Below are positions 41,656 to 61,023 of a stretch of 64,000 nucleotides of DNA, in pieces (within the stretch, counting starts at the first letter, position 1; each line of letters starts with the position of its first letter). The notes under the pieces were generated by a model that was given only the letters and a program-made list of their open reading frames with translations, was not told the origin of the DNA and did no database searches. A program made the translations under genes and the position numbers. The stretch covers positions 1 through 64,000 of the forward strand of contig NZ_SBIV01000002.1 of NCBI RefSeq assembly GCF_004765795.1. Direction: 5' to 3'. This DNA is from Halorussus marinus (GTDB lineage: Archaea > Halobacteriota > Halobacteria > Halobacteriales > Haladaptataceae).

Positions 41656-41846
41656 ACCTTTTGCTGTGGGCGCGGCACGAGCGCCGCGCCCTTGCAAAAC
41701 GTTCGTGAAAACCGCCGGGAGAGCTTCGCTCTCCCGAGCCTGCGTTCGCTTTGCTCACGCAGACGCCGTCACCGCCTCACGAGCGCCTGCGGCGCTCGTT
41801 CGACGGTTCCTTGGTCCGCTCGCTCACGGTACGTTCGCTCGCGGTG
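41656..41846 (+). repeat. Dispersed structured element, copy A
   Basis: Begins ACCTTTTGCTG directly after the PAC2 stop. Outer stem TTTTGC (41659-41664) with GCAAAA (41694-41699); inner stem GGGCGCGGC (41668-41676) with GCCGCGCCC (41683-41691), loop ACGAGC. Then follow palindromes such as GGGAGAGCTTCGCTCTCCC, CTGCG...CGCAG and GAGCGCCTGCGGCGCTC, and the end block TTGGTCCGCTCGCTCAC ... GTTCGCTCGCGGTG. Shares blocks with copies B, C and D. Open frames through it are Arg/Ala-rich and not believed. Confidence 0.8.
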
Positions 41847-42013
41847 TGGCCTCTACGTCCCCATAGAGTTTCGAATCTGCGCTGGCTGGTGAAAAATACC
41901 AGTCGATAGTATTACATTTTCTTATTCAGAACTTCCAGTGTAACCCCGGATAGATGCAGAGCGTGTATTGAACATTTCAATTGGTAGGGGTGGTATACCA
42001 CTCACAGATAGAG

Positions 42014-42020
42014 TTTATAT
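42014..42020 (+). promoter_or_regulatory. TATA box of the island membrane gene
   Basis: TTTATAT centred about 31 bases before ATG 42048, in AT-richer DNA. Confidence 0.5.
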
Positions 42021-42047
42021 GAATGACCGTTGTATCCCGACTCTCTG

Positions 42048-42446
42048 ATGAATGGCGAGCAAGTACATCAAGGGTCGCACCGCCAAAGACGGGAGCCAGA
42101 CGTTTCTGGCAACTGGTGGTACATCCTTCTACTGAATGGACTTATCTATATTATTGGCGCTCTTGTTGGAGTCGGAATTGGGTTACTCGGCAATAGCATT
42201 GCCTCTCTGGCCGACACGCAGACAGCAGTCCAATTTGTTGAAACCGCTCTTAACGTAACCAGCGTAGTGATTATCGGACTAATCTTTCTTACTCCGATAG
42301 CAGTTCACTTTGACCGAGAATACGTCCGAGCAGTTTCCTCGTGGACACCAACGCCGTTCTACTATCTCGTCTTCCTTGGGCCACTCGGGTCGCTCATCTC
42401 ACTTATCTACCTCTACCACCGTCACAACCATGTGGGAACACCGTAA
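42048..42446 (+). CDS. Orphan three-helix membrane protein in AT-richer DNA
   Basis: 132 residues with three hydrophobic segments (WWYILLLNGLIYIIGALVGV, SVVIIGLIFLTPIAV and FYYLVFLGPLGSLISLIYLY) and a His-rich C-terminus (YHRHNHVGTP). No family recognised. Codon use and base content are clearly more AT-rich than the neighbours, a sign of transfer. ATG 42048 fits the TATA box; a TTG at 42030 is possible in frame. Confidence 0.65.
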   Translation: MNGEQVHQGSHRQRREPDVSGNWWYILLLNGLIYIIGALVGVGIGLLGNSIASLADTQTAVQFVETALNVTSVVIIGLIFLTPIAVHFDREYVRAVSSWTPTPFYYLVFLGPLGSLISLIYLYHRHNHVGTP

Positions 42447-42563
42447 CTGTCTGAACCATGGGCGCCATTTTACTTTCATTGCTCAATCCGCACCACGTAT
42501 CGAGCAAAACCACGGAGTCATTCACGAACTGCAGACTAAATAAAACCGTATCACCAACTGCTG

Positions 42564-43208
42564 TTACACTCGATCGAGCACTTCCGGGACCTCACGGAGC
42601 GACTCGACGACGGCGTCGGCTCGATCTGCGCCGTCGTCGGGGTCCTCGGCGAGGTAGATGCCGGCGAAGCCGGCGGCCTGCGCCGGGAGCACGTCGCGTT
42701 CGAGGTCGTCGGCGACGAAGGCGTACTCGTCGGCCGACAGTTCGTCTCTGGCCGCCGCGAAGATCTCGGGGTCGGGCTTGGCCGCGCCAACGTCGCCCGA
42801 AACCACGACCGCGTCGAGCCGATCGGCGAGGCCGTACCGGTCGAGCTTCCGGCGCTGGACCCGCTCGGAGCCGTTGGTCAGCACGCCCGTCGGGCAGTCG
42901 AGGGCGTCGAGCGCCTCGCGGGCGCCCGGCCGGGGCTGGGCGGCGTCGACCTCCCGATCGACGTAGGCCGACGCGAGCTCGTCGAAGTCGGCCACGAAGT
43001 TGAACTCCTCGCAGAGGTCAGCCATCGCCGCCCGGGTGGGTTCGGGGTGACACTCCTCGAGGTACTCGAAGAAGACCTCAGTGTAGTACTCGTGGTAGTC
43101 GGAGTCGGGGGTCACGCCCGCGTCCGAGAGGGCGGTTTCGAAGACCGACTCGAAGTCCGCCGGGAGTTCGACGAGCGTTCCGTCGAGGTCGAAACAGACT
43201 GCGCGCAT
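42564..43208 (-). CDS. HAD-superfamily hydrolase
   Basis: 214-residue phosphatase of the phosphoglycolate phosphatase/pyrimidine nucleotidase type. Motif I CFDLDGTL, motif II VLTNGSE, motif III Lys AAKPDPEIF, motif IV VADDLERDVL, and a helical cap at residues ~15-85. Start at MRAVCFDLDG; TATA-like CTTTTGTC about 28 bases upstream on the minus strand. Substrate not assignable. Confidence 0.9.
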   Translation of the reverse strand: MRAVCFDLDGTLVELPADFESVFETALSDAGVTPDSDYHEYYTEVFFEYLEECHPEPTRAAMADLCEEFNFVADFDELASAYVDREVDAAQPRPGAREALDALDCPTGVLTNGSERVQRRKLDRYGLADRLDAVVVSGDVGAAKPDPEIFAAARDELSADEYAFVADDLERDVLPAQAAGFAGIYLAEDPDDGADRADAVVESLREVPEVLDRV

Positions 43209-43240
43209 GGCAGGGACCTCACACCCCACCGACAAAAGTC

Positions 43241-44395
43241 TCAGGACTGCCGATACACGAGGTTTCGCTGGATCTCGTTTGCGCCCTCGTAGATAACCGG
43301 GATGCGAACGTCCCGATACACCCGTGCGATCCGGCGGTCGGTCAGGATCGAGCGTCCGCCGTGGAACTGCATCCCCTGCTCGGCGCAGTCGGTCGCGGTC
43401 TCGGTCGCCTTCACCTTGCTCATCGCGGCCCACCGACCGGCGTTCTCGCCGTCCCGGACCTTCTGGGCGGCCCGGTAGGCCAGCGCGCGGGCGGACTCGA
43501 ACTCGATCTGCATGTCGGCGAGGCCGTGCTGGACCGCCTGGAAGTCAGCGATGGTGCGGCCGAACTGCTCGCGGTCGTGGACGAACGACCACGCCTCCTC
43601 GATGGCGGCCGCCGCGAGCCCGAGCCCGTGGCCCGAGACGACCACGCGACCGAAGTTGAAGAACTCGGCGAGCATCATGAACCCGGCGCCCTCGTGGCCG
43701 ACGAGGTTGTCGGCCGGGATCCGGCAGTCGTCGAAGACGATGTGGGCCTGCTTGCTCGCGCGCATCCCCATCTTCTCGGGGATGTGCTCGGCGTCGTACC
43801 CGTCGGCGTCGGTCGGGACGATGAAAAGCGAGTGGTTGCCGTAGCGGTTGTCGGGGTCCTCGCCGGTCCGGGCGTAGACGGTGAGCCAGTCGCCCTCGAC
43901 GCCGTTGCCGATCCAGTACTTCTCGCCGTTCAGGACCCACTCGTCGGCGTCCTCGTCTTTCTCGGCGGTCGTCTCCATCCCCGAGAGGTCGCTCCCGGTT
44001 TCGGGCTCGGAGACCGCCAGTCCCGTGAGCTGGTCGCCCTCTGCGACCGGCCGGAGGTACGCCTCTTTTTGCTCGTCGGTGCCGTACTTCTCGACGATCT
44101 CGGCGCCGAAGCTCGCGAGCTGGAGCGACAGCGCGATCCCCGCGTCGGCCCGGAACCACTCCTCGGCGACCGCGAGCATCTCGACGACGTCGAGGCCCCG
44201 GCCGCCGTACTCCTCGCCGATGTCCTGTGCGACGAGGCCGGCGTCCCGGCCGGCCTCCAGCACGTCCCACGGGTACTCGCCCGCCCGGAAGCACTCCTCG
44301 GCGTTGGGCGCGACGTGTTCGTCGGCGAACTCGCGGGCCTCCTGTTTGACGTCTCGGGCGTACTCCGGAACGACGTCCGCGGAGAGCAACTCCAT
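43241..44395 (-). CDS. Acyl-CoA dehydrogenase
   Basis: 384-residue FAD enzyme doing the first step of beta-oxidation or branched amino-acid breakdown. FAD/substrate segments LTGLAVSEPETGSDLSGMET and EKYWIGNG are visible; MQFHGGRSILTDRRIARVYRD and catalytic Glu in IPVIYEGANEIQRNLVYRQ close the chain. Length is standard. It lies 37 bases downstream of the acyl-CoA ligase gene on the same strand, a logical activation/oxidation pair. Confidence 0.94.
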   Translation of the reverse strand: MELLSADVVPEYARDVKQEAREFADEHVAPNAEECFRAGEYPWDVLEAGRDAGLVAQDIGEEYGGRGLDVVEMLAVAEEWFRADAGIALSLQLASFGAEIVEKYGTDEQKEAYLRPVAEGDQLTGLAVSEPETGSDLSGMETTAEKDEDADEWVLNGEKYWIGNGVEGDWLTVYARTGEDPDNRYGNHSLFIVPTDADGYDAEHIPEKMGMRASKQAHIVFDDCRIPADNLVGHEGAGFMMLAEFFNFGRVVVSGHGLGLAAAAIEEAWSFVHDREQFGRTIADFQAVQHGLADMQIEFESARALAYRAAQKVRDGENAGRWAAMSKVKATETATDCAEQGMQFHGGRSILTDRRIARVYRDVRIPVIYEGANEIQRNLVYRQS

Positions 44396-44432
44396 ACCGG
44401 ACGAAGGGACCGCGACGTGAAATAGCTCGGGG

Positions 44433-46094
44433 CTACTCGGACTCCTCGTCGGGGGCCGCCTCCTCGGGGACCGCCCCGTCGACGAGCGAGTGGTCGTCGT
44501 ACTGGTCGCGCAACACCTTCTTGTCGAACTTGCCGGTCGCGGTCTTGGGGACCTCCTCGATGAACACGACCTCGTCGGGCGCCCACCACCGGGGGTACTC
44601 CTCGCTGATCGCGGCCAGTAGCTCGTCTTTGAGCGTCTCCTGATCGGTGCCCGCGGTCGGGACGACGAACGCGACCGGCCGCTCCTGCCAGCGCTCGTGG
44701 GGGACGCCGACGACGGTCGCCTCCGCCACGTCGTCGTGGGCCATCAGCGCGTTCTCGAGTTCGAGCGAGGAGATCCACTCGCCGCCGCTCTTGATCACGT
44801 CTTTGGCGCGGTCGACGATGTTGATGTAGCCGTCCTCGTCGACGGTCACGACGTCACCGGTCTTGAGCCACTCGCCCTCGAAGTCCTCCTCGTTGGCCTC
44901 GGGCCGTTTGAAGTACGACTGGGTGACCCACGGCCCCTTGATGTAGAGTTCGCCGAAGTCCTCGCCGTTCCACGGCACCTCCGTGCCGTCGTCGTCGACG
45001 ACTTTGAACTCGAGGCCGGGCACGATGAGCCCCTGTTTGCCCTGCTTGTCGTACCGGCTGTCGGCGTCCCACTCCTCCATGCCGTCTTTGAGGTGGGAGA
45101 CGCTGCCGATCGGCGCGGTCTCGGTCATCCCCCACGCGTGGAGCACCTCGACGTCGTACTCCTCGTCGAACCGCCGGATGACCGACTTCGGGGCGGCGCT
45201 CCCGCCGATGACGATGGTTTCGAGCGACGAGATGTCGGCGTCGTTGTCTTCGAGGTACTCCAGCAGTCCGAGCCACACCGTCGGGACGCCCGCGGTGAAG
45301 GTGACCCCTTCGGACTCGATGAGGTCGGCCAGATCGGCGGGGTCCGGCGACGGGCCGGGGTAGACGTGGGTGGCGCCGGCGGCGGTCGCCGAGTACGGCA
45401 TCCCCCACGCGTTGACGTGGAACATCGGGACGACCGGCATGATGACGTCCGACTCGTCGAACTGGAGTCCCTGCGGGGTCAGCGACGCCATCGTGTGGCC
45501 CCACAGCATCTGCTGGGTGTACTCGACGCCCTTCGGGTCGCCGGTGGTGCCGGAGGTGTAACACATCCCGGCGGGCGTGTCGCCCGACAGGCTCGGCCAG
45601 TCGTAGTCGGTCGACTCGTCGCCGACGAACGACTCGTAGTCGGTCACGGGCGCGAGGTCGGTGTCGGGCACCTCCTCGTCCATCACGACGAACTGCTCGA
45701 CGCCGTCGAACGCCGCCGAGTCGGCCGCGCCTTCGAGCTTTTCGACCAGCGAGGCGTCGACGAAGATGAGTCGGTCGTCGGCGTTCTCGACGATGTGCTC
45801 GATGTGGTGGTCGGGAAGCAGGGGGTTGATCGTGTGGAGCTGTCGGCCCGAGTTCGGCACGCCGAAGTACGTCTCGAAGTGGCGGTGGTGGTTCCAGCAG
45901 AAGGTCGCGACCCGTTCGCCGGACTCGATCCCGGCGGCGTCGAGGGCGTTCGCCAGGCGGGCGGTGCGGTCCTCGAAGGTCGCGTAGTCGTAGCGCTCGA
46001 TCCCGCGGTTGGTGCGCGAGACGATCTCGGTGTCGGGGTAGAGGTTGGCCGCGCGCCACAGGAACGGTCGGAGCGTCGTGTCTGCGCCTCCCAT
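44433..46094 (-). CDS. Fatty-acid/acyl-CoA synthetase (AMP-forming)
   Basis: 553-residue adenylate-forming ligase that couples a carboxylic acid to CoA. P-loop YTSGTTGDPKGVEYT, A5-like GMTETAPIGSVSH, motor motif EWLKTGDVV, and the C-terminal catalytic Lys in KTATGKFDKKVL. The N-terminal signature and length fit medium/long-chain ligases (AlkK type). Start at MGGADTTLRP, with a CCTATC box about 24 bases upstream. Feeds the acyl-CoA dehydrogenase next door. Confidence 0.93.
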   Translation of the reverse strand: MGGADTTLRPFLWRAANLYPDTEIVSRTNRGIERYDYATFEDRTARLANALDAAGIESGERVATFCWNHHRHFETYFGVPNSGRQLHTINPLLPDHHIEHIVENADDRLIFVDASLVEKLEGAADSAAFDGVEQFVVMDEEVPDTDLAPVTDYESFVGDESTDYDWPSLSGDTPAGMCYTSGTTGDPKGVEYTQQMLWGHTMASLTPQGLQFDESDVIMPVVPMFHVNAWGMPYSATAAGATHVYPGPSPDPADLADLIESEGVTFTAGVPTVWLGLLEYLEDNDADISSLETIVIGGSAAPKSVIRRFDEEYDVEVLHAWGMTETAPIGSVSHLKDGMEEWDADSRYDKQGKQGLIVPGLEFKVVDDDGTEVPWNGEDFGELYIKGPWVTQSYFKRPEANEEDFEGEWLKTGDVVTVDEDGYINIVDRAKDVIKSGGEWISSLELENALMAHDDVAEATVVGVPHERWQERPVAFVVPTAGTDQETLKDELLAAISEEYPRWWAPDEVVFIEEVPKTATGKFDKKVLRDQYDDHSLVDGAVPEEAAPDEESE

Positions 46095-46206
46095 ACCGTC
46101 GAGTTGGTGCCCGGATTGATAGGGCTTGCTACCACAGTCGACTACCGGCGGGGAGTTTACTCCACGAATCAGAATCGTTATCACCGAAGTGTCGAAACGA
46201 GATGAC

Positions 46207-46965
46207 GTGACGGAGGCCGACCCGTTTCGGGTGGACTTGCACGTCAAGGTGCTCGACGAAGGCGTCGTCGAGCGGGCGAAAGCCCGCGGGCTCGACGCGA
46301 TAGCGTACGCGCCACACTTCACCCGGCTCCCCGACGTCCGCGAGCGCGCCCGGCGGTTCTCCGACGAGGACCTGCTCGTCGTCCCGGGCCGGGAAGTCTT
46401 TACCGGGTCGTGGCGCAACCGCAAGCACGTCCTCGCGCTCGGGCTCGAGGAGCCGGTGCCCGACTTCATCTCGCTCGGCGACGCGATGGCGGAGTTCGAC
46501 CGTCAGGACGCCGCGGTGCTGGTCCCGCACCCGGAGTTTCTCACGGTCGGTCTCGACGCCGGTGATCTGGCGGCCTACCGCGACCGGATCGACGCGGTCG
46601 AGGCGTACAACCCCAAACACTGGCGACACCACGACCGGCGGGCCCGCGGGCTGGCTCGGGAGTACGACCTCCCGGCGTACACCTCCTCGTACGCCCACCT
46701 CCGGCGGACGATCGGCGAGGCGTGGGTCGAGTTCGACCGCCGGGTCGACTCGGCGCGGGCGCTCGTCGACGCGCTCAGAGACGGCGTCGAACGCCGGGTG
46801 GTCCACCGGACGGGACTGGGCCACCGGCTCCGGTGTGCCGCGGAGTTCGCCCACCTCGGGTGGGAGAACTCCTGGAAGAAGATCGATCGGCTGTTCCTCT
46901 CGGGGACCGAACCCACCCACCCCGATCACATCGTGTACGACGGTCGCTTCGAGGGCGTCTACTGA
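46207..46965 (+). CDS. PHP-domain putative metal-dependent phosphoesterase
   Basis: 252 residues in the PHP fold. Metal-binding His sites appear in FRVDLHVKVLD (first His, but the usual HxH is HV-K), YAPHFTRLP, VLVPHPEFLTVG and a Glu in VVPGREVF. Because one His of the classical DLHxH is Lys here, the metal site is altered. I chose GTG 46207 (VTEADPFRVDLH); in-frame upstream codons also exist, so the start is uncertain. Substrate unknown. Confidence 0.78.
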   Translation: MTEADPFRVDLHVKVLDEGVVERAKARGLDAIAYAPHFTRLPDVRERARRFSDEDLLVVPGREVFTGSWRNRKHVLALGLEEPVPDFISLGDAMAEFDRQDAAVLVPHPEFLTVGLDAGDLAAYRDRIDAVEAYNPKHWRHHDRRARGLAREYDLPAYTSSYAHLRRTIGEAWVEFDRRVDSARALVDALRDGVERRVVHRTGLGHRLRCAAEFAHLGWENSWKKIDRLFLSGTEPTHPDHIVYDGRFEGVY

Positions 46966-46989
46966 GCCGCCGCGGGTCCGTCGCGGCGA

Positions 46990-47472
46990 TCAGACGAGTC
47001 CGGCGACGACGGTCGTGATGTCCTGAACCGGCACGTCGAGGTGGACGACCGCCGCGATGGCCGCGAGTTCGAGACCGGTGACCGCGACGGTCACCGCGGT
47101 CGCCCGGTCGCTGGAGACCGCGACGCCGACCGGGAGGTTGTACTCCTTCGAGTACGGGTAAAAGAGGGCGATACCGCGCTTGCTCCCGATCACGTCGAGG
47201 ACGTAGTGGGTGGCGACGCCGATCCAGACGTAGTGGAGATTACCGAAGTAGACGGGGTAGGCCGCGATGACCGCCAACACCGGGAGGTTGTGGAGCGTCT
47301 TGCGGTGCTTGCCGAACGCGGTGTCGACGTCCGGGAACAGCGCGCCGAGCACGACTGGCACCGACACCTCGGCGATCATCCGGAACGTCGGCACGTCGCC
47401 CGCCGGGTAGATGATGTACCCGAGTCCGATGCTCAAAAGCACCGCGTTCAGGACGTGTCCCTCCTTGTTCAT
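46990..47472 (-). CDS. DUF457/YdjM-like membrane metal-dependent hydrolase
   Basis: 160 residues with about four hydrophobic segments. His/Asp motifs GALFPDVDTAFGKHRKTLHN and THYVLDVIGSKRG are typical of the YdjM/DUF457 family, thought to be membrane-bound metal-dependent hydrolases. Starts MNKEGHVLN, a usual N-terminus for the family. Substrate unknown. Confidence 0.85.
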   Translation of the reverse strand: MNKEGHVLNAVLLSIGLGYIIYPAGDVPTFRMIAEVSVPVVLGALFPDVDTAFGKHRKTLHNLPVLAVIAAYPVYFGNLHYVWIGVATHYVLDVIGSKRGIALFYPYSKEYNLPVGVAVSSDRATAVTVAVTGLELAAIAAVVHLDVPVQDITTVVAGLV

Positions 47473-47550
47473 GGTCGGACCTCCGTCGCCTCGTCGTCGC
47501 GTCGCGGGGGCATGTCCGATGCCTTCGCCGGAGGGGTGACAAGGTTTTCC

Positions 47551-48060: not shown

Positions 48061-48112
48061 GGCCGGACCGAGGGGCGCGGACGGAAAGAATGTGTGGGCT
48101 CCGGCGGGGCGG

Positions 48113-48768: not shown

Positions 48769-49074
48769 TCAGAGCCCGCCGGTCACCTCGTCGAGGCGGT
48801 TCACGACCTGCTGGAGGTCGGCCGCGTCTTCGATGGCGTCGCGTGCGCGCTCGCGCTGGCGGACCTCCGCCGCGCTCGCGCCGTAGGCCCGGACGTACTC
48901 CGCTCGCGAGTGCTCGTTGAACGCGTGCCGGATCGCGAAGTAGCCGTCGGGGACGACCGACCCGCACACCTTGCACTCGCGGCGCTTGTGGTCGGTCGTC
49001 TGGTGGACGATGGCTTCCTCGACGTCGTCGAACTCCTCGCCGCAACCGTCGATGGCGCACTCCCAGTCGCTCAT
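48769..49074 (-). CDS. Double C2H2-like zinc-finger protein
   Basis: 101 residues. Two Cys2His2-like units: CAIDGCGEEFDDVEEAIVHQ ending with TTDH, and CKVCGSVVPDGYFAIRHAFN ending with EH. A charged helical tail follows. Small zinc-finger proteins are common in haloarchaea and may bind nucleic acid or protein; role unknown. A TATA-like ATTTACC about 27 bases upstream supports the start MSDWEC at 49074. Confidence 0.82.
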   Translation of the reverse strand: MSDWECAIDGCGEEFDDVEEAIVHQTTDHKRRECKVCGSVVPDGYFAIRHAFNEHSRAEYVRAYGASAAEVRQRERARDAIEDAADLQQVVNRLDEVTGGL

Positions 49075-49115
49075 GAGCGGGTGGTCGAACTCCCCCGGTA
49101 AATCTCTTTCCGCCC

Positions 49116-49262
49116 GACCTTTTGCTGCGGGCGCGGCACGAGCGCCGCGCCCTTGCAAAAGCTCGATCAAAAACCGGCGCTCCTCCCGACGTTCGCTGCG
49201 CTCACTCTGGTCGTCGCTTGGTCCGCTCGCTCGGGCTTCGCCCTCGCTCGCGGTGCGATTGC
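49116..49262 (+). repeat. Dispersed structured element, copy B
   Basis: Outer stem CTTTTGC (49119-49125) with GCAAAAG (49155-49161); inner stem GGGCGCGGC (49129-49137) with GCCGCGCCC (49144-49152). Then GCTCGATCAAAAAC and the block CGCTTGGTCCGCTCGCTC ... CTCGCTCGCGGTGCGA as in copy C. Lies in the spacer between the zinc-finger gene and the 48-residue gene. Copy C faces it on the other side of that gene. Confidence 0.8.
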
Positions 49263-49334: not shown

Positions 49335-49481
49335 ATGAGCGACATCGAAGACGCAGTAGACGAGTTCCTCCGCGAGACGGATACGGTGTTTAGCGAGTAC
49401 GAACAGGGGTATATGGACGCGGACGCGGCCCTAGAGCGTATCGAGAACCATATCGGGACGCTGCGAGAGCAGCGGGAGTAG
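49335..49481 (+). CDS. 48-residue acidic protein
   Basis: Starts MSDIEDAVDEFLRETDTVF and runs to TLREQRE; likely two helices. Good haloarchaeal composition and a sensible start make it believable even though it is short. An open frame continues upstream through element B but that part is an artefact. The gene sits between two inverted element copies. Function unknown. Confidence 0.65.
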   Translation: MSDIEDAVDEFLRETDTVFSEYEQGYMDADAALERIENHIGTLREQRE

Positions 49482-49520
49482 CGACTCTCGAAGCAGCCTG
49501 ACTAACCGCCGTTGAGTACC

Positions 49521-49680
49521 TGCAGTCGCACCGCGAGCGAACGGAGTGAGCGAGCGGACCAAGGAACCGTCGACCGAACGCCCGAGCGAAGCGAGGGCGG
49601 GAGGGAGGCGGTGACGCCGTGTTTTTGATCGAGCTTTTGCAAGGGCGGCGCGTTCAGGCGCCGCCCGCAGCAAAAGGTCG
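49521..49680 (-). repeat. Dispersed structured element, copy C
   Basis: Read on the minus strand it starts CGACCTTTTGCTG immediately after the geranylgeranyl reductase stop. Outer stem: plus-strand CTTTTGC (49634-49640) with GCAAAAG (49670-49676). Inner stem: GGGCGGCGC (49643-49651) with GCGCCGCCC (49658-49666), which differs from A/B on both arms so pairing is kept. The end block matches A (TCGACGGTTCCTTGGTCCGCTCGC) and B. Confidence 0.8.
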
Positions 49681-51051
49681 TTAGTATTTAGGCTCGGCGC
49701 CGGTCGTCGCGTAGATGTCGTCCATGATCGCGTCCCGGCGGGCCTGCCACCCCGAGAGCCGGTCCGGCGAGGAGGGGTAGTCCCGATAGTGGTCGATGAG
49801 GTCGTCGGCGTGGCGCTTGGTCTTGTAGAGGTCGTAGATCAGGTCCCAGTGGCCGATGGACTTGATCGCGGTCTGGACCTTGAGCCACCAGCCGACGTTG
49901 GCGCTGCCCGAGTAGAGCGCCTCGGCGAGCTTGTCGGAGGGGAGCGCGCCGAGCAGTCCCATGAGGTCGTCAACGTCGACCGCGGTCGAGAAGACGTTGT
50001 ACACGTCGAGGCCGGCGTAGCGCGCGCCGAAGTGGTCCATGACGCGCTCGTTGTACTCCCAGAGGGCGTCCTCGCCGACGTCGCCGTCCTCGATCGCGTC
50101 GATCGCGGCCTCGGCGGCGTACTTGCCGGCGTAGGCCGCGCCCGCGATCCCGCCGCCGGTAGTGGGGTTGACGTGGCCGGCCGCGTCGCCGACCGCCACG
50201 AACCCGGGCGCGACCGCCGAGTCGTAGGGCCGGCGGGTCGGGAGCGCCGCCCCGAGTTTGTCCTCGACCGTCGCGCCCGCGAACTCCGGCCGATTGCGGA
50301 GGTCGCGCTTGAGGTCGTCGACGAGGTGCATCGGCTCCTCGTTCATCTGGAAGCCGAGCCCGGCGTTGATCTCGGTCTCGGTCCGCGGGAAGTACCAGAG
50401 GTAGCCCGCCGCCCGTTCGGTCGGCTTGAACACCAGCGCGTCCGACCACTCGACCGGCTCCTCGACTTCGACGATCTCGCGGTAGGCCGAGCAGAACTGC
50501 GAGTAGGTGACGTTGGTGTCGAACGTGCTCTGGTCGAGGTCGGCCTTGTCCTGGAGGATCGACAGCGAGCCGGCGGCGTCGACCACCACGTCGGCGTTGT
50601 ACCGCTGGACGCTCCCGTCGCGTTTGCCCCGGACGCCCGTGACCCGACCGTCCTCGCGCTGGGTCACGTCTTTGACGACCGTGTCGTAGTGGAACTCGAC
50701 GCCGGCGCGTTCGGCACCCTCGATGATCGACCGACCGTACTCCCACCGGTCGATGACCGCGAGTTCGCCCGGCACCGGGATCTCGAGGACGGTGTCCTCC
50801 TGTGGGATCTCGAACCGGCCGTGGTCGACGTCGGTGTTGGTGAACGACGACGCCAACTGGGACTTCGGGATGGCCTCGGGAAAGGCGTCGGCGCCCTTGA
50901 GCGCGTCGCCGCAGGCGATGTGGCCCGCCTCCTCCTCGTCCTTCCGCTCGACGACGACGACATCGTAGCCCGCGTCGCTGGCGGTGGCGGCGGCGTAACA
51001 GCCGGCCGTTCCCGCGCCGACGACGACGACGTCGTGCTCGTGAGTAGCCAT
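49681..51051 (-). CDS. Geranylgeranyl reductase family protein
   Basis: 456-residue FAD-dependent reductase that saturates isoprenoid double bonds, most likely in archaeal membrane lipids or quinones. Dinucleotide fold VVVVGAGTAGCYAAATASDAG at the start, second FAD motif AVGDAAGHVNPTTGGGI near residue 290, and PxxYxWxFP-like AAGYLWYFPRTETEINAG. Tyr-rich C-terminal helix region follows. A TATA-like GTATAAAG (51084-51092) lies upstream of ATG 51051. Exact substrate (lipid, menaquinone or chain) not fixed. Confidence 0.9.
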   Translation of the reverse strand: MATHEHDVVVVGAGTAGCYAAATASDAGYDVVVVERKDEEEAGHIACGDALKGADAFPEAIPKSQLASSFTNTDVDHGRFEIPQEDTVLEIPVPGELAVIDRWEYGRSIIEGAERAGVEFHYDTVVKDVTQREDGRVTGVRGKRDGSVQRYNADVVVDAAGSLSILQDKADLDQSTFDTNVTYSQFCSAYREIVEVEEPVEWSDALVFKPTERAAGYLWYFPRTETEINAGLGFQMNEEPMHLVDDLKRDLRNRPEFAGATVEDKLGAALPTRRPYDSAVAPGFVAVGDAAGHVNPTTGGGIAGAAYAGKYAAEAAIDAIEDGDVGEDALWEYNERVMDHFGARYAGLDVYNVFSTAVDVDDLMGLLGALPSDKLAEALYSGSANVGWWLKVQTAIKSIGHWDLIYDLYKTKRHADDLIDHYRDYPSSPDRLSGWQARRDAIMDDIYATTGAEPKY

Positions 51052-51179
51052 ACCTTCGGCTACGAGACGCAGGGGGCAAAACTCTTTATACGCGGAATTT
51101 GGAATCTGTCGGGCGCGAGCCGACGCGACGCGGTCGCCGGGAATAAAGAGTGAAGTGTCGGAGTTGTCTACTCCGAGGT

Positions 51180-51509
51180 ATGGCCGACTACACCGTCGAG
51201 TTCGCCGGGACGGGCGAGACCGTCGAGGTCTCGGACACCGAGACGATCCTGAGCCGCTGTATCGAGGAGGGCATCGCCCAGGAGTACTCCTGTCGGGTCG
51301 GGATGTGTCTGGCGTGTTCGGCCGAGATCGTCGAGGGAGAGGTGACCCAGCCCGCGGCCCGGGGACTGACCGACGAGGAGGCCGAGTCGTACGCGCTGAC
51401 CTGCATGGCCCGCCCGCAGAGCGATCTGGTGCTCGACCGCGGGAAGTACCCGCCGAGCATCGACGACGAGGCGGCGGCCAGCGAGGCGCCCGCGGCCGAC
51501 GACGACTGA
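51180..51509 (+). CDS. Plant-type [2Fe-2S] ferredoxin
   Basis: 109-residue electron carrier. Cluster Cys in YSCRVGMCLACSAEIVEG (C-x4-C-x2-C) and a fourth Cys in YALTCMARPQSD. It lacks the long N-terminal acidic insert known from the main haloarchaeal ferredoxin, so it is a second type. Divergent from the geranylgeranyl reductase, for which it is a plausible reductant (inference). Start MADYTVEF. Its stop touches the convergent gene's stop with no spacer. Confidence 0.92.
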   Translation: MADYTVEFAGTGETVEVSDTETILSRCIEEGIAQEYSCRVGMCLACSAEIVEGEVTQPAARGLTDEEAESYALTCMARPQSDLVLDRGKYPPSIDDEAAASEAPAADDD

Positions 51510-52322
51510 TCACCGACGAGTTCTCTCGAACCACTCGACCGCGTACTCGACCAGCGGGCGCTGGTCGAGAAGTCGCGCCTCGGCGTGGCCCACTCGCCCG
51601 CGAGCGACCGCGTCCGGCCGATCGCGCTCGAACGCCCGACCGAGGTCCGCGAAGTCGCCGCCGTCGTAGTCGGGGCGCTCGAACTCGATCCACGCTCGCT
51701 CGCCGTCGAGCAGGACGGGCGCGCCGTCGCTCAACACCGTCTGGTCGAACCGCGCGCGGTGCTCGGCGAGGTGGAGCGAGGTGTCGCTGTCGTGACCGAC
51801 CCCGAGCAGTAGCACCGACCCACCGCGGTCGTACACCGCCGCGAGCGGCGATTTTTCCCCGAGTCCGCCGTCGTAGGCGTGGTCGGCGACGACGGCGTCT
51901 GCGTCCGCGCCTCGCGCCGCGAACGAGTAGATGGGGTGGCGACTCCGGACGACGCCGGGCGACGACCGGAACGACTCGGGGATCGCGCCCATCCCGCGGG
52001 TCGGCGACACGTCGGGGCGGTACGGCGCCATCGAGGTCCGGATCCCGCCGGACGCGCCGTCGGGAGCCGTCGAGTTCTCCCAGTCGGTCGGGTCCGCGTA
52101 CTGGGGCGAGTGAGTCGGCATCACCAGCGTCCCCGCCGCTGAGACGGCGTCAAACAGCGCGTCGACGACCGCCCGAGCGCCCCCGGGGACCCACCCGAGC
52201 GAGGACAGCGACGAGTGGACCAGCAGGGTGTCGTCCTCACGAACACCGAGCGACCGGAGGTCGTCGGCGAGGCGCGAGACGGTCACGGGGTCGGATCGGT
52301 CGACGGCGTCGGCTCCGGTCAT
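51510..52322 (-). CDS. AAC(3)-family N-acetyltransferase
   Basis: 270 residues of the aminoglycoside 3-N-acetyltransferase/YokD fold. Visible are LLVHSSLSSLGWVPGGARAV, VMPTHSPQYADP, PTRGMGAIPESFRSSPGVV and SRHPIYSFAARG with the catalytic-type His, and LLGVGHDSDTSLHLAEH. Uses acetyl-CoA. In archaea, whose ribosomes are mostly aminoglycoside-insensitive, the natural amine substrate is probably not an antibiotic. Lies 2 bases after the flavoprotein gene. Confidence 0.88.
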   Translation of the reverse strand: MTGADAVDRSDPVTVSRLADDLRSLGVREDDTLLVHSSLSSLGWVPGGARAVVDALFDAVSAAGTLVMPTHSPQYADPTDWENSTAPDGASGGIRTSMAPYRPDVSPTRGMGAIPESFRSSPGVVRSRHPIYSFAARGADADAVVADHAYDGGLGEKSPLAAVYDRGGSVLLLGVGHDSDTSLHLAEHRARFDQTVLSDGAPVLLDGERAWIEFERPDYDGGDFADLGRAFERDRPDAVARGRVGHAEARLLDQRPLVEYAVEWFERTRR

Positions 52323-54126: not shown

Positions 54127-54205
54127 GCCCGGCGATACGGGCCGCGCGGTCAAAACGCTGTGGCAGACCGGGGTCGGCTCGGAGCCGCCCGCTCGCTCCC
54201 GTAGC

Positions 54206-54215
54206 CTTTTAACGC
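54206..54215 (+). promoter_or_regulatory. TATA box of gatB
   Basis: CTTTTAACGC is centred about 28 bases before the ATG at 54238. Confidence 0.5.
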
Positions 54216-54237
54216 TCACACCCCGAACGGCCGGGTA

Positions 54238-55722
54238 ATGACTGCTCAGGCTGTCCAGCAGGAGGACCTCGCGGTCGTCATCGGACTGGAGGTCCACGTC
54301 CAGCTGGAGACCGACACGAAGATCTTCTGTGGCTGTTCGACCGACGTGGCCGACGACGAGCCCAACACCCACACCTGTCCGGTGTGTCTCGGCCTGCCGG
54401 GAGCGCTCCCCGTCCTGAACGAGGCGGCCGTCGAGTCGGCGGTGAAGGTCGGGAAGGCCATCGACGCCGACGTCCCCGCGGAGACGGCGTTCCACCGGAA
54501 GAACTACTTCTACCCCGACCTCCCGAAGGGGTTCCAGATTACCCAGTACGACGCGCCGATCTGTCAGGACGGCGAGCTCGAAGTCGAGGTCGAGGGCGAG
54601 CGCAGGACCGTCGGCATCCGGCGCGCCCACCTCGAAGAGGACCCCGGGAGCATCCAGCACGAGGGCGGGAGCATCGACACCGCCGATTACACGCTGGTCG
54701 ACTACAACCGCGCGGGCGTCCCGCTGATGGAGATCGTGACCGAGCCCGACTTCCGGGGCGCGGCCGAGGTCCGGGCGTTCCTCGCGAAGCTCGAAGAGGT
54801 GCTCGAGTACCTCGGCGTGTTCGACAGCCAGCGCGACGGGAGCCTCCGGATCGACGCCAACCTCAGCGTGGTGCCCGGCGAGGAGATCGACGACGGCGCG
54901 ATCAGCGACGAGGCCCTCGAAGACGCAAACCGCACCGAGGTCAAGAACATCTCCAGCCACAAGGGCGCCGAGAAGGCGCTGTCCTACGAGGCGACCCGCC
55001 AGAAGAACGCGGTCAAGCGCGGCCGCGAGGTCGCCCAGGAGACCCGCCACTGGGACGAGTCGCGGGGCATCACCGTCTCGATGCGCTCGAAGGAAGAGGA
55101 GAAAGACTACCGGTACTTCCGGGAGGCCGACCTGCCGCCCCTGCGGGTCAGCGACTGGAAGGAACAACTGGAGATTCCCGAACTCCCCGACGCCCGCCGC
55201 GAACGGTTCCGCGAGGAGTACGGCCTGAGCGCGGAGGCCGCGAGCAAGCTCACCTCGACGAAGCAGGTCGCGGACTTCTACGAGGACGTGGCCGGCGAGT
55301 ACGACCCCGACCTCGCGGCGACGTGGGTCGCGGACAACCTGCTCGGCGAACTCAACTACCGCGACATGGCGATCACCGACGTCGCCGACCGGCTCGGGGA
55401 GTTCAAGCGACTCGTCGAACTGGTCGCCGACGGGGAGATAACGACGAAGAACGCCGAGGAGGTCGTCCTCCGCGAGATGCTCGACGAGGGCGACGACCCC
55501 GAGACCGTCATCGACCGCGAGGGGCTCGGGAAGGCCGACGAGGGCGCCGTCGAGGGAGCCGTCGCGGCCGCGATCGAGGAGAACCCCGACGCGGTCGAGG
55601 ACTACCACGCCGGCGAGGACGGCGCGCTCAACTTCCTCGTCGGGCAGGTGATGCAGAAGACCGGCGGGAGCGCCGACCCCGGGTCGGTCAACGGGCTGTT
55701 GCGCGAGCGCCTCGACGAGTAG
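54238..55722 (+). CDS. gatB: Asp/Glu-tRNA amidotransferase subunit B
   Basis: 494-residue subunit of GatCAB that converts Asp-tRNA(Asn) or Glu-tRNA(Gln) to the amide. Signature motifs: VIGLEVHVQLETDTKIFCGC, the Zn-type Cys in HTCPVCLGLPGALP, YFYPDLPKGFQITQYDAPIC, VDYNRAGVPLMEIVTEPD, and the C-terminal YqeY-like domain with LNFLVGQVMQKTGGSADP. gatA and gatC are not adjacent here. Confidence 0.97.
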   Translation: MTAQAVQQEDLAVVIGLEVHVQLETDTKIFCGCSTDVADDEPNTHTCPVCLGLPGALPVLNEAAVESAVKVGKAIDADVPAETAFHRKNYFYPDLPKGFQITQYDAPICQDGELEVEVEGERRTVGIRRAHLEEDPGSIQHEGGSIDTADYTLVDYNRAGVPLMEIVTEPDFRGAAEVRAFLAKLEEVLEYLGVFDSQRDGSLRIDANLSVVPGEEIDDGAISDEALEDANRTEVKNISSHKGAEKALSYEATRQKNAVKRGREVAQETRHWDESRGITVSMRSKEEEKDYRYFREADLPPLRVSDWKEQLEIPELPDARRERFREEYGLSAEAASKLTSTKQVADFYEDVAGEYDPDLAATWVADNLLGELNYRDMAITDVADRLGEFKRLVELVADGEITTKNAEEVVLREMLDEGDDPETVIDREGLGKADEGAVEGAVAAAIEENPDAVEDYHAGEDGALNFLVGQVMQKTGGSADPGSVNGLLRERLDE

Positions 55723-55841
55723 CGGACGGGCGACGCGTCGGTTCTCGGACCGCGAGGGGCGCGCCGCGCTCCTGTCTCGACCCCGTTGCGGCGTGCTGTC
55801 AGGTCACGCGACGAGGTGGCCGCGCCTTCCGATTTAAGTCC

Positions 55842-57269
55842 TCAGTCGCCGGGCGTGGCCGCCGGCTCCTTCTCCACGACGCCGCGTTTCCACCGGCCGA
55901 GCGCGAACCACAGGACGCCGACCACGAACGATCCGATCGCCGACGCCGCCCACGACCACCAGAGGCCGGTGACCCCCCAGCCGAACCCCGAGAGGGTGAG
56001 CCCCGCGACGGTGACCGTCCCGCCGTAGGCGAACAGCACCGCGAGCGGGATCCGGAGCACCCACCGCGAGAGGAACGATAGGGCCATCGCGACCAGCGTG
56101 TCGCCCGCGCCCCGGAACCCGCCCTGTACGACCATCAGCCCGCCGAAGAAGGCGAGGAACGGTCCGATGATGCGGAGAAACCGCACGCCCTCGGCGACGA
56201 CCGCCGGATCGCCGATGAAGATCCGCATCGCCGCCCCGGGGAAGGCGAACATGAGCCCGCCGGCCCCGAACAGCACCGCCATCGTCCCCGCGGTCGCCTT
56301 CCAGGTCACCTCAGCGGCCCGGTCGGGGGTGTCGGCGCCGAGGTTCTGGCCGACGCCGGTCGCGGCCGCCTGTCCGACCGCGCCCGAGACGGTCCACGAC
56401 ACCGACATCAGCCGGACGCCGACCCCGTAGGCCGCGGTCGGGATGGGCCCGAACCGGGCGACCAGCGCCGCCATCGCGACCGCGGCGAAGCTCCGGGCCG
56501 CGCCGTCGACGGTCGCGGGCGAGCCGACGGTGACGAGCTTCTTGAGCACCGGCCAGTCGGGCCGGAGATCCGCCAGCCGGAGCCGGACGCCCCACTCGCC
56601 TTTGACGAGGATGTAGACGCCCACGATCGCGACGAGGACCCGCGAAATCAGGGTCGCCACCGCCGCGCCGCGAGTGCCCCACGCCGGGAACGGGCCGTAC
56701 CCGAGGATCAGGAAGGGGTCGAGCACGACGTTGAGCCCCGCCGAAAACACCATCAGCCACATCGCGGTCTTGGTGTCGCCGGCGCCCCGGAGCACCGCCC
56801 GGAAGACGAAAAAGAGGAAGGTGAACGGGATCGCGACGAAAAGCACCTCGATGTAGGCGAGCGCCGCGGTGTAGACCTCCCCGCGCGCGCCGACGAGCGT
56901 GACGAGGGGCTCGCGGAACGTGTAGCCGGCCGTCGCCAGCGTCACCGACACCGCGACCGTGAGCAACAGCGTCTGAGCGACGACGTTGTCGGTCTGTCGG
57001 TCGTTGCCCGCGCCGACGTGCTGGGAGACCAGCGCGACCGAGGCCGCGGTCAGCCCCATCGCCACCGAGACGAACATCCACGAGGTCGGGAACATCAGCG
57101 AGACCGCCGCGACCGCCTCGGGGCTGACTCGGCCGACCCAGAACATGTCCGCGAGGTTGTAGAACGTCTGGAGGAGGTTGCCCGCGACCAGCGGCCACGC
57201 GAGGCTCGTCAGTTTCGGCGTGATCGCTCCGGTCGTCATGTCGACGCGGCTGTCGGTGCTCTCGGACAC
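55842..57269 (-). CDS. MATE-family efflux transporter
   Basis: 475-residue multidrug/organic cation exporter of the MATE family, driven by ion gradient. About twelve hydrophobic segments in two halves (LAWPLVAGNLLQTFYNLADMF in the first, VTVGSPATVDGAARSFAAVAM in the second), plus the conserved NLADMFWVGR. GTTTAA (57299-57304) lies about 32 bases upstream. Substrate unknown. Confidence 0.92.
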   Translation of the reverse strand: MSESTDSRVDMTTGAITPKLTSLAWPLVAGNLLQTFYNLADMFWVGRVSPEAVAAVSLMFPTSWMFVSVAMGLTAASVALVSQHVGAGNDRQTDNVVAQTLLLTVAVSVTLATAGYTFREPLVTLVGARGEVYTAALAYIEVLFVAIPFTFLFFVFRAVLRGAGDTKTAMWLMVFSAGLNVVLDPFLILGYGPFPAWGTRGAAVATLISRVLVAIVGVYILVKGEWGVRLRLADLRPDWPVLKKLVTVGSPATVDGAARSFAAVAMAALVARFGPIPTAAYGVGVRLMSVSWTVSGAVGQAAATGVGQNLGADTPDRAAEVTWKATAGTMAVLFGAGGLMFAFPGAAMRIFIGDPAVVAEGVRFLRIIGPFLAFFGGLMVVQGGFRGAGDTLVAMALSFLSRWVLRIPLAVLFAYGGTVTVAGLTLSGFGWGVTGLWWSWAASAIGSFVVGVLWFALGRWKRGVVEKEPAATPGD

Positions 57270-57485
57270 TACTCAGTGGTCAATCGGGCGATCAGTTCTT
57301 AAACGCGCGGGTTCCCCGTCGGACCTGCCGGGAGTCGCGGTCGGCGTCGCGGGGGTCGCGAGCGGCCGGTCGCCACGCGTCAGGCGCCCGCGACGGACCC
57401 GCGCGTGAGCGCGTCTGTCCCGCCGCCCGCTTGCGATTTCTCGCGGCGAAAGCTTTAGGCGGTCTGTTGTCCTACCGGGAACACG

Positions 57486-57560
57486 ATGACCGACCAGCGA
57501 CCCCCGGCGGGCCTTCGCGCCGGGCGACGCGAGCCGACCGGAGGTGGGGCATGGAGCTGA
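57486..57560 (+). CDS. Possible upstream mini-frame coupled to topA
   Basis: ATG 57486 opens 24 codons ending in TGA at 57558-57560, in a different frame and overlapping the topA ATG by 10 bases. CTTTAGG lies about 32 bases upstream, so a leaderless message would start here and topA would be read by re-initiation. It may be chance in GC-rich DNA. Confidence 0.3.
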   Translation: MTDQRPPAGLRAGRREPTGGGAWS

Positions 57561-60064
57561 TAATCACCGAGAAGGACAACGCCGCCCGGCGCATCGCCGC
57601 GATTTTGAGCGGCGAGTCGGCGGAGGCCGAGCGGCGAAACGGCGTCAACGTCTACAAGTGGGGCGGCAAGCGATGCATCGGGCTGTCGGGCCACGTCGTG
57701 GGGGTCGACTTCCCCGACGAGTACAACGACTGGCGCGACGTCGAACCGGTCGAGCTCATCGACGCGCCCATCGAGAAGAAAGCCACCAAGGAGAACATCG
57801 TCCGCACCCTCCGACTGCTGGCCCGGGACGCCGATCAGGTCACCATCGCGACCGACTACGACCGCGAGGGCGAACTCATCGGCAAGGAGGCCTGGGAGCT
57901 CGTCCGGGAGGCCAACGACGACGTGCCGATCCGGCGGGTCCGGTTCTCCTCGATCACCGAAAACGAGGTCGTCGACGCGTTCGCCGACCCCGACGAGCTC
58001 GATTTCGACCTCGCGGCCGCGGGCGAGGCCCGCCAGGAGATCGACCTCATCTGGGGCGCGGCCCTGACCCGATTTCTCTCGCTTTCGGCCCGCCAGCTCG
58101 GCGAGGACTTCATCTCCGTCGGGCGCGTCCAGAGCCCGACCCTCAAGCTCATCGTGGACCGAGAGCGCGAGATCGAGGCGTTCGACCCCGAGGACTACTG
58201 GGAGCTGTTCGCCGACCTCCTGAAAGAGACCGACGAGGAGACCGCCGAGTTCGAGTCCCAGTACTTCTATCTCGACGAGGACGACAACGAGGCCGAGCGC
58301 GTCTGGGACGAGGCGGCCGCCGAGACCGCCTTCGAGGCGCTCGAAGCCGCGACCGAGGCGATCGTCGAGCGCGTCTCGCGGCGGACCCGGACCGACGACC
58401 CGCCCGCGCCGTTCAACACCACCCAGTTCATCCGGGCGGCCGGGAGCCTCGGCTACTCGGCCCAGCGCGCGATGAGCATCGCCGAGGATCTCTACACCGC
58501 GGGGTACATCACCTACCCCCGGACCGACAACACGGTGTACCCCGACGATCTGGACCCCGAGGAGTTGCTCGACGCCTTCGCCGGGGACTACCACTTCGGC
58601 GACGACGCCGAGGACCTGCTTGGGGCCGACGAGATCGAACCGACCGAGGGCGACGAGGAGACCACCGACCACCCGCCGATCCACCCGACCGAGGACGTCC
58701 CGACGAAGGGCGAACTCGACGACGACGAGTGGGAGGTGTACGAGCTGGTCGTCCGGCGGTTCTTCGCCACGGTGGCCGAGTCGGCGACGTGGGAACACCT
58801 CAAGGTCGTCGCGGGCGTCGAGGCCGACGGCGACACCCACCGGCTCAAGGCCAACGGCAAGCGCCTGCTCGAAGAGGGCTACCACGCGGTCTACCCCTAC
58901 TTCAACAGCACCGAGAACTACGTCCCGGACGTGACCGAGGGCGAGTCCCTCGCGATCACCGACGCCCGCATCGAGGACAAACAGACCCAGCCGCCCCGGC
59001 GGTACGGCCAGTCGCGGCTCATCGAGACCATGGAGGAGCTTGGGGTGGGGACGAAGTCGACCCGCCACAACACCGTCGAGAAACTCTACGACCGGGGCTA
59101 CGTCGAGGGCGACCCGCCGCGCCCGACCCAGCTGGCGAAGGCGGTCGTGGAGGCCGCCGAGGAGTACGCCGAGTTGGTGGTCAGCGAGGAGATGACCAGC
59201 GACCTCGAAGCCGACATGACCGCCATCGCGGAGGGCGAGGCCGACCTGAACGAGGTGGCCGACGAGTCCCGCGAGTACCTCCAGCAGGTGTTCGACGAGC
59301 TTCGGGACTCCCGCGAGGAGGTCGGCGATCTGCTCCAGAAGTCGCTGAAGGCCGACAAGACCCTCGGGCCGTGTCCCGACTGCGGCGAGGAGCTACTGGT
59401 GCGCCAGAGTCGTCGGGGGTCGTACTTCGTCGGCTGTGACGGCTACCCCGACTGTGAGTACACCCTGCCGTTGCCAAACACCGGCAAGCCGCTGATCCTC
59501 GACGAGACCTGCGACGACCACGACCTCCACCACGTCAAGATGCTCGCGGGCCGCCAGACGTTCGTCCACGGCTGTCCGCTCTGCAAGGCCGAAGAGGCCG
59601 ACGAGGCCGACGACGAGGTCATCGGCGAGTGTCCGGACTGCGCCGACGAACACGGCGGCGAACTCGCCATCAAGCACCTCCAGAACGGCTCGCGGCTGGT
59701 GGGCTGTACGCGCTATCCCGACTGCGACTACTCGCTGCCGCTCCCCCGTCGGGGCGACATCGAGGTCACCGACGAGCGGTGCGAGGAACACGACCTGCCC
59801 GAGCTGGTGGTCCACAACGGCGACGAGCCGTGGGAACTGGGCTGTCCGATCTGCAACTACCGGGAGTTTCAGGCCCGCGACAGCGAGTCGGGCACCGACC
59901 TCGAGAGCCTCGACGGCATCGGCGCGAAGACCGCCGAGAAGCTCGAAGCCGCGGGCATCGAGAGCGTCGACGACCTGAAAGACGCCGAGGTCGAGACGGT
60001 GGCGTCGGAAGTGCAGGGCGTGAGCGAAGACCGGCTCCGGAGCTGGCAGGCGAAAGCCGACTAG
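57551..60064 (+). CDS. topA: DNA topoisomerase I (type IA)
   Basis: 837-residue enzyme that relaxes negative supercoils by cutting one strand. TOPRIM domain MELIITEKDNAARRIAAIL and TDYDREGELIGKEAW, catalytic Tyr in AGYITYPRTDNTVYP, and IHPTEDVP. The C-terminus holds zinc-ribbon units (CPDCGEELLVRQSR ... CDGYPDC; CPLCKA; CPDCADEHGGE ... CTRYPDC; CPICNY) and a final helix-hairpin-helix (LESLDGIGAKTAEKLEAAGI). No reverse-gyrase helicase part. ATG 57551 chosen as the start of the TOPRIM strand; longer frame is not family sequence. Confidence 0.95.
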   Translation: MELIITEKDNAARRIAAILSGESAEAERRNGVNVYKWGGKRCIGLSGHVVGVDFPDEYNDWRDVEPVELIDAPIEKKATKENIVRTLRLLARDADQVTIATDYDREGELIGKEAWELVREANDDVPIRRVRFSSITENEVVDAFADPDELDFDLAAAGEARQEIDLIWGAALTRFLSLSARQLGEDFISVGRVQSPTLKLIVDREREIEAFDPEDYWELFADLLKETDEETAEFESQYFYLDEDDNEAERVWDEAAAETAFEALEAATEAIVERVSRRTRTDDPPAPFNTTQFIRAAGSLGYSAQRAMSIAEDLYTAGYITYPRTDNTVYPDDLDPEELLDAFAGDYHFGDDAEDLLGADEIEPTEGDEETTDHPPIHPTEDVPTKGELDDDEWEVYELVVRRFFATVAESATWEHLKVVAGVEADGDTHRLKANGKRLLEEGYHAVYPYFNSTENYVPDVTEGESLAITDARIEDKQTQPPRRYGQSRLIETMEELGVGTKSTRHNTVEKLYDRGYVEGDPPRPTQLAKAVVEAAEEYAELVVSEEMTSDLEADMTAIAEGEADLNEVADESREYLQQVFDELRDSREEVGDLLQKSLKADKTLGPCPDCGEELLVRQSRRGSYFVGCDGYPDCEYTLPLPNTGKPLILDETCDDHDLHHVKMLAGRQTFVHGCPLCKAEEADEADDEVIGECPDCADEHGGELAIKHLQNGSRLVGCTRYPDCDYSLPLPRRGDIEVTDERCEEHDLPELVVHNGDEPWELGCPICNYREFQARDSESGTDLESLDGIGAKTAEKLEAAGIESVDDLKDAEVETVASEVQGVSEDRLRSWQAKAD

Positions 60065-60234
60065 GTGTAAGGGAGTCCGGAGTCGCTGTCTGGAAGCGAG
60101 ACCGGACCCGAGACACCCGGTTCGGTAGGGTCGTGGTGTTTGCTCTCCGGTGCGGCACCTATCAGAATCAGACCGGTTTGGAGGAGAGTTGTAGAATGCA
60201 TTACTATTATGGTCGAGCCTCGGATCTCTCCGAT

Positions 60235-60861
60235 ATGTCCCTCGCCGACAGCGGACGGCCCGAAATCGAGCGCTGGACTGGGCGACTACTGGGGGTCGCT
60301 GGCGCGACCCTCTTGATCGAGGCCGCCAGTGGCCTCTACGGTGAGAGTCTGGCCGGCGTTCCGTTTTCGTGGGCGCTCTCTGCGATTCCGTTCGGCATCG
60401 GATTCGCCCTCGCACCGCTCGTGTTGCTCAGGTCGTATCAGTCTCTCGCCGACCGCACCCCGATGACAGCAATCGTCGGGGTTGCGTTCGTGGCGTCACT
60501 ACCGGTGGGGACCATCGTCTTGGTTGGGTGGGCCAGCCTGGCGCGTGCCAGCGATCTCGTACCCAACGTGACTGTCCTGCCGGTCACGATCAGTACCGCC
60601 TTTTTCACGCTTTTGGGCCTGTTTGCGATTGGTATCGCGGTGTTCGGAGTCGTTTTCTTCCGGGACGACCGAACCCGGTTGCTCGGTGGATCGCTGGTGC
60701 TGTTTGCGTCCGGGTGGGCCATCCCGCTGGCTGTGGCAAAACTGTCGGGCGCATATCCATCGTGGCTCGCGGATGTGCTGGTCGTCTCGGTGGCGACGAG
60801 CATGCTCGTCGTCGGCTACGCCTTTCCACCGACCGAACCCGATCGTGGTTGGCACAACTAA
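60235..60861 (+). CDS. Hypothetical six-helix membrane protein
   Basis: 208 residues with six hydrophobic segments (LLGVAGATLLIEAASGLYG, AIPFGIGFALAPLVLL, AIVGVAFVASLPVGTIVLVG, TISTAFFTLLGLFAIGIAVF, LVLFASGWAIPLAVAK, VLVVSVATSMLVVGYAF). No family recognised. A TATA-like TTACTATTATGG (60201-60212) sits 29 bases before ATG 60235, which favours that start over ATG 60196 lying next to the box. Confidence 0.7.
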   Translation: MSLADSGRPEIERWTGRLLGVAGATLLIEAASGLYGESLAGVPFSWALSAIPFGIGFALAPLVLLRSYQSLADRTPMTAIVGVAFVASLPVGTIVLVGWASLARASDLVPNVTVLPVTISTAFFTLLGLFAIGIAVFGVVFFRDDRTRLLGGSLVLFASGWAIPLAVAKLSGAYPSWLADVLVVSVATSMLVVGYAFPPTEPDRGWHN

Positions 60862-60891
60862 TCGCGCCACAGTGCGGGCGGGAGGAAGTGA

Positions 60892-61023
60892 CAAGCGAGA
60901 TTCCGTGACGGCGTCTGGCCGGGAAAAGCGAACGCAGGCTCGGGGACTCTGCTCTTTCGGCGGTTTTCGATCGAGCGTTTGCAAGGGCGACGCGTTCAGG
61001 CACCGCCCGCAACGAAAGGTCGT
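60892..61023 (-). repeat. Dispersed structured element, copy D (diverged)
   Basis: On the minus strand it begins ACGACCTTTCGTTGCGGGCG. Inner stem arms (61000-61008 and 60985-60993) pair as GGGCGGTGC/GCGTCGCCC on the minus strand through two G-U pairs, which would be A-C mismatches on the plus strand. Outer stem CGTTGC/GCAAACG has one bulged base. CGAGCCTGCGTTCGCTTTT and CAGACGCCGTCAC match copy A. The end block is lost. Its 5' end lies 7 bases before the TATA box of the next gene. Confidence 0.72.

Follow-up and report, generated by a model that had tools for sequence, protein, structure and literature searches.

The window, a stretch of 64,000 nucleotides of Halorussus marinus DNA, contains four copies of a foldable intergenic element, at 41654..41846 (+), 49115..49253 (+), 49531..49680 (-) and 60892..61022 (-), here called copies 1 to 4. 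An earlier note on this DNA had placed them correctly to within a few bases, and its observations that they carry no coding family (no gene is evidently encoded) and that two of them lie at stop codons are borne out. The first base of copy 1 is the G of the TAG stop codon (TAG, then AACC) of a PAC2-family gene (40905..41654, +), the C-terminal part of which was translated, and copy 3 begins directly after the TAA of a gene for an FAD-dependent oxidoreductase (49681..51693, -) whose product ends ...TGAEPKY*. The remaining two copies are also non-randomly placed. Each starts upstream of the ATG of a divergent gene, copy 2 at a distance of 40 nt (DUF7565 gene, 48769..49074, -) and copy 4 at a distance of 41 nt (PcrB-family gene, 61064..61762, +).

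When the four copies are aligned, their first 60 nt or so (the 5' block) hardly vary; variable palindromes come next and then, in three of the four, a conserved 3' block. The common order of blocks described earlier thus holds for copies 1 to 3, including the 3' block TTGGTCCGCTCGCTC...CTCGCGGTG, but not for copy 4, from which that block is missing. Similarly, the GC-rich hairpin is found in copies 1 to 3 as one long hairpin over the first 50-60 nt, with z of -4.2 to -6.2 against shuffles and a fold that beats all 200 of them, and it is degenerate in copy 4 (z -0.65). Copies 2 and 3 are complete elements. Copy 1 comprises a 5' hairpin module (41654-41714), extra internal palindromes and the 3' module, and copy 4 is decayed, with a 5' module (60962-61022) mismatched in its lower stem. 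The extra palindromes, GGGAGAGCTTCGCTCTCCC and GCCTGCGTTCGCTTTGCTCACGCAGAC, occur in the middle of copy 1 (41714-41810) and in longer copies elsewhere in the genome, and their confinement to some copies marks the middle of the element as a mosaic. Between the opposed copies 2 and 3 lies a small ORF of about 48 codons (49337-49481), and DNA like that of this interval adjoins the same gene in sister species.

The earlier note had proposed a covariance-model search of this genome and of other haloarchaea. The model R1, which covers the first 61 nt of the element and was built from 24 copies, has 46 matches at E < 1e-3 in the 3.76-Mb genome (cmsearch E-values down to 7.5e-17), and blastn with copy 2 as query returns 44. 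The copy number is far above chance, as judged from these E-values and from a covariation score that no shuffle reached. Across the class, R1 detects the element in 172 of 292 Halobacteria genomes and in 60 of 77 genera, in a survey that scored 18 candidates per genome and therefore gives lower bounds on copy number. Clearly, then, the alternative outcome that the note had named, no further copies and no structure conserved in other species, is not what was found. Carriers include Natrinema, Natronorubrum, Haloterrigena, Halostagnicola, Halovivax, Haladaptatus and Halorussus. A second model, with deeper scoring in 37 genomes, assigns 38 copies to this genome and 24 and 19 to the next richest, and it finds the element in none of the eight genomes of one genus; the distribution is patchy. 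Searches of plasmids yielded a young Natrialbaceae version of the element and, of the window version, fragments alone; no annotated element lies beneath the plasmid matches. No description of the family was found in the open-licence literature, and words that start with Halo do not occur in the text of a 2025 survey of bacterial and archaeal REPs.

The typical element is mostly 100-230 nt long. Its 5' hairpin is laid out as NNACCTTTTGC, a variable GC stem and GCAAAANGTNN, after which come unpaired GATGAAAAGC/GATCAAAAAC and the variable palindromes; the 3' palindrome is built from CCGC-TC-GC-TC...TC-GC-TC-GCGG. In this genome, 42 cells show two-sided changes where 16 are expected from shuffles, the covariation score is 0.247 as against 0.084 when shuffled, and the signal is gone when the partner is slid by 1-3 columns. 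For 58 distinct sequences from other genomes the class-wide score is 0.356, against 0.077 shuffled, in an alignment that was fitted to the model and leans towards it. In these sequences the upper stem and the outermost pairs vary freely, and the four U-A pairs of the lower-stem TTTT/AAAA are fixed in 56-58 of the 58 and never covary. Such fixation amid freely varying pairs implies that the letters are conserved beyond their pairing.

In each of 36 whole elements the better fold belongs to the complement of the outward-reading strand, with both RNA and DNA parameters. Composition explains part of the difference, since dinucleotide shuffles reproduce about half of it, and 34 of the 36 elements show a larger difference than their shuffles do. 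Most stem mismatches set pyrimidine against pyrimidine on the outward strand and purine against purine on the complement, and in the 3' module all 34 pattern-fitting elements have TC opposite TC, which is tandem G-A on the complement. These observations point to single-stranded DNA of the complement strand as a structure that matters, perhaps for mobility, and they argue mildly against a role as an mRNA hairpin. The suggestion that the copies represent an RNA family is likewise not well supported, given the folding of the complementary strand and the failure of the copies to match anything in Rfam, either at the gathering threshold or with E up to 1.

The position of the element relative to genes is sharply defined, gene edges being taken from our own codon-usage gene calls (with a model trained on the window) and not from annotation. 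In this genome, 28 of the 46 copies start -2 to +8 nt from a same-strand stop codon, and nine start 35-59 nt, mostly 39-45 nt, upstream of a divergent start codon. Since most mRNAs of haloarchaea have no leader, the latter distance falls just outside the core promoter. When copies fetched from four further species of the genus are included, to give 118 copies in five genomes, 65 of 77 stop-class copies lie within -2 to +8 nt, and the same two peaks of placement, at the stop codon and at the divergent start, recur for copies in other families. Among 19 stop-side copies in this genome, 18 are no more than 8 nt from the stop, where uniform placement over the available slack would put 4.4; in other families the count is 25 of 43, with 6.3 expected. 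Only the 5' side is tight to genes, the 3' side being loosely placed. Within the genus, therefore, the 5' hairpin mostly adjoins a gene and the element points away from it, whether at the stop codon or at the outer edge of the presumed promoter. Moreover, the outer stem matches the stop codon where the two overlap: TAG or TGA covers the first stem bases in 18 of the 118 copies, the first base is G in all 18 as opposed to 1 of the other 100, and the far (3') arm matches at pair 1 in 17 of 18 and at pair 2 in 18 of 18.

Comparison of the five genomes indicates that sites are common to species while the inner hairpin belongs to genome-specific types. Of the 118 copies, 79 are at 31 gene edges that are occupied in at least two of the genomes, and at these shared sites the copies have mostly kept their distance from the gene edge but not their inner hairpin. 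The nearest inner sequence comes from the same genome for 56 of the 79 (17.8 expected) and from the same site for only 5. Some memory of the site is nevertheless left, because mean inner-hairpin similarity at orthologous sites (0.278) is about that within a genome (0.254), and both exceed that of unrelated pairs (0.142).

In G175, which is closely related, the model finds no more than two matches. Sixteen of its orthologous gene ends were read: a standard element stands at one of them, altered or half-decayed hairpins with CCTTTT-like arms that start after the stop stand at several, and nothing of the kind is present at about nine. With so many of these ends altered, decayed or empty, the element is dispensable. 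The family probably predates the divergence of these species at several sites, with loss under way in G175, and the shared sites could in part reflect repeated insertion at preferred places instead of inheritance. Several gene ends of G175 (L258-L272) also have long near-perfect hairpins, each of a different sequence and with a 3-nt loop, which suggests active correction or replacement of palindromes. Sharing at greater depth has two examples. Two genomes of another family have the element close behind the FAD-dependent oxidoreductase gene of copy 3, and in this genome and three genomes of a third family it is carried by an acyl-CoA-dehydrogenase-like gene, so named from a reading of its translated C-terminus and not from a database match. 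Recurrent insertion may account for these as an alternative.

The family is able to move, and has moved. In the genome G254 four copies are identical over 147 nt, from TGCGAAC to ...CTTCTCCGCCT, in unrelated flanks, and three copies in G163 have the same ends and are identical over the same span; these young copies are not at gene edges. The mobile element that the earlier note had thought possible is thus supported by abrupt-ended, identical copies at unrelated sites in two genomes, but the target duplications that it had looked to were not seen, none being apparent by eye around the 147-nt units. In the present genome many copies are at edges common to sister species, and an autonomous parent, sought via the Y1 transposase family (PF01797), was not found (no match in a 37-contig draft that is 99.97% complete); PF01797 is present in five other element-carrying genomes. 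No clean empty site was recovered, the orthologous sites in sister species being filled, decayed or too diverged to set a boundary. Compared with PATEs or IS200-IS605-derived elements, for which near-terminal palindromes and the lack of terminal inverted repeats and of target duplication are the criteria, the 147-nt unit has abrupt ends, no visible duplication and no parent transposon that could be found. It is not a MITE, as its TGCGAAC... and ...CTTCTCCGCCT ends are not inverted repeats and duplication is not seen by eye.

Some copies (L062, L067, L119 and L121) are embedded in a larger unit, about 300 bp long, whose outer arms are GGTTTCTTTATTC...GAATAAAGAAACC and which has matches in 20 of 41 Natrialbaceae genomes. 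A search for an element-free form of this possible host unit with the joined GGTTTCTTTATTC-ended arms gave split matches only, none of them continuous. At about 1600-1790 of L114, almost identical stretches of 30 nt (CTGTACTGAACGGCAACTACGYGTGCGAAC) border a young copy to either side, an arrangement that could show how the unit joins its target. A second intergenic repeat family, with dozens of matches per genome in that genus, is located beside a young copy in G254 (L113:1900-2180); comparison of the L113 flanks within their own genus gave no clean junction.

These properties define a class-wide family of dispersed, foldable, non-coding DNA elements in haloarchaea that is REP-like. With bacterial REPs and BIMEs of the GTAG and CGTC superfamilies (PMC3733652, PMC12306157) it has in common dispersed extragenic palindromes in tens of copies, modular mosaics, pairs in opposite orientation, frequent proximity to stop codons and no coding capacity. 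The 46 copies here are, like REPs, dispersed extragenic palindromes with opposed pairs among them (e.g. C1:435534+/435900-), and the cognate RAYT or Y1 transposase that characterizes REP systems was not found in this genome with PF01797; CGTC REPs also lack a dedicated transposase (PMC3733652), and in archaea only the IS200-type subclass has been found among Y1 proteins (PMC6006769). The element differs from REPs in its length, mostly 100-230 nt as against 20-40 nt (PMC3733652, PMC12306157), in being archaeal, and in having, outside divergent promoters, a second class of sharply placed copies. The alignments of 24, 58 distinct and 36 copies show no GTAG or CGTC tag left unpaired. Thus, the element behaves like a REP but is without the defining tags and size, and is not filed as a member of REP/BIME. 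The nearest described haloarchaeal repeats that were found are the PATEs and SMRs of Haloquadratum, compared by description and not by sequence: as set out in passages of PMC3119063, these are also transposase-free palindromic repeats without target duplication and with nested insertions, but the same passages do not describe them at stop codons or promoters, or with an inner part homogenised per genome. Terminators of Haloferax volcanii (PMC7237163) resemble the element in their T tracts at gene ends, and a hairpin tested there cut read-through; they are short T stretches or single hairpins, and are not described as a dispersed homologous element of 100-230 nt.

Why should such copies be kept at gene edges? 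We consider it an even call that the element is REP-like, once mobile, and retained at gene boundaries, probably as a boundary of transcription. Copies would have spread by a trans-acting single-strand mechanism, and those at gene edges would have been kept because they mark the limit of a transcription unit. Conserved T tracts (CCTTTTGC outward; GCTTTTCATC or GTTTTTGATC inward) would end transcription leaving or entering the unit, the hairpin would help them to do so, and ectopic conversion or re-insertion would homogenise the inner part. From a family and a placement that are matters of observation, we infer with evenly balanced confidence that gene-edge copies act in this way, on the basis of the outward orientation at both edges, the T tracts conserved in both directions, and the finding in H. 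volcanii that transcription stops at T stretches and, to a degree, at a hairpin (PMC7237163). The 3' termination element suggested in the earlier note fits the 28 copies after stop codons but does not alone explain the nine outside divergent promoters, and a general outward-facing boundary fits both. Against termination, the forward tract of the element is only T4, while the efficient terminator tested in H. volcanii is T5C (PMC7237163). The boundary reading is also opposed by dispensability in G175, by the patchy distribution and by the better folding of the strand complementary to mRNA.

The main rival is that these are purely selfish, neutral mobile elements that inserted between genes and were tightened against them as slack DNA was deleted, until the hairpin abutted indispensable sequence; template switching, by making quasi-palindromes perfect, would account for covariation, and recent bursts or gene conversion would account for homogeneity. 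The 147-nt copies that recur without a difference at unrelated sites away from gene edges in G254 and G163, the decay at many G175 sites and the patchy distribution with species-specific subfamilies all agree with such a history, and we regard it as possible though doubtful. Deletion pressure, however, should tighten both sides of the element and not the 5' side alone, and template switching by itself does not predict a lower-stem TTTT/AAAA that never covaries. The match of the outer stem to the stop codon and the occupation of the same sites in several species also count against neutrality.

Less probable still, and in our judgement distinctly unlikely, is an element of the mRNA 3'-UTR, in which a hairpin immediately behind the stop codon delays ribosomes as they terminate or shields the 3' end of the mRNA, as proposed for E. 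coli REPs. Positions 0-4 nt from the stop codon, or overlapping it, would suit this role, and E. coli REPs within 15 nt of stop codons have been reported to stall ribosomes, in work cited in PMC12306157. No ribosome terminates outside a divergent promoter, however, where a fifth or more of the copies are located, and the mRNA-sense strand is both the less stable one and the one whose stem mismatches are mostly pyrimidine-pyrimidine. A site for site-specific recombination comparable to integron attC, with a structured single strand after stop codons and a better-folding bottom strand, would share those two features with the element but is very improbable, as there are no cassette arrays, copies are dispersed beside orthologous genes, the GCTCGATC subtype lacks the GTT/AAC core and the promoter-side copies are unlike cassettes.

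Retention as a transcription boundary can be extended, more tentatively and with the balance tilted against it, to a class-wide archaeal DNA mark of gene boundaries: the 5' hairpin would stand at both outer edges of transcription units, its stem would incorporate the stop codon, and a single-strand or conversion mechanism would continually overwrite the inner hairpin in each genome, such that position and structure persist and sequence does not. In haloarchaea, short T tracts and core promoters are held to define where genes are bounded. A repeat abutting exactly these two boundaries in many genera, at sites that species have in common, would be a readily testable candidate for an archaeal boundary or termination element. 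It would also offer a natural system for the study of how a mobile repeat becomes a fixed genomic feature, and the concerted replacement of inner hairpins at fixed sites asks for a mechanism in a genome in which no Y1 transposase was found.

Elsewhere in the window, five direct repeats with a 276-nt unit, 70-80% alike, occupy 18266-19669 and are probably internal repeats of one large protein gene.
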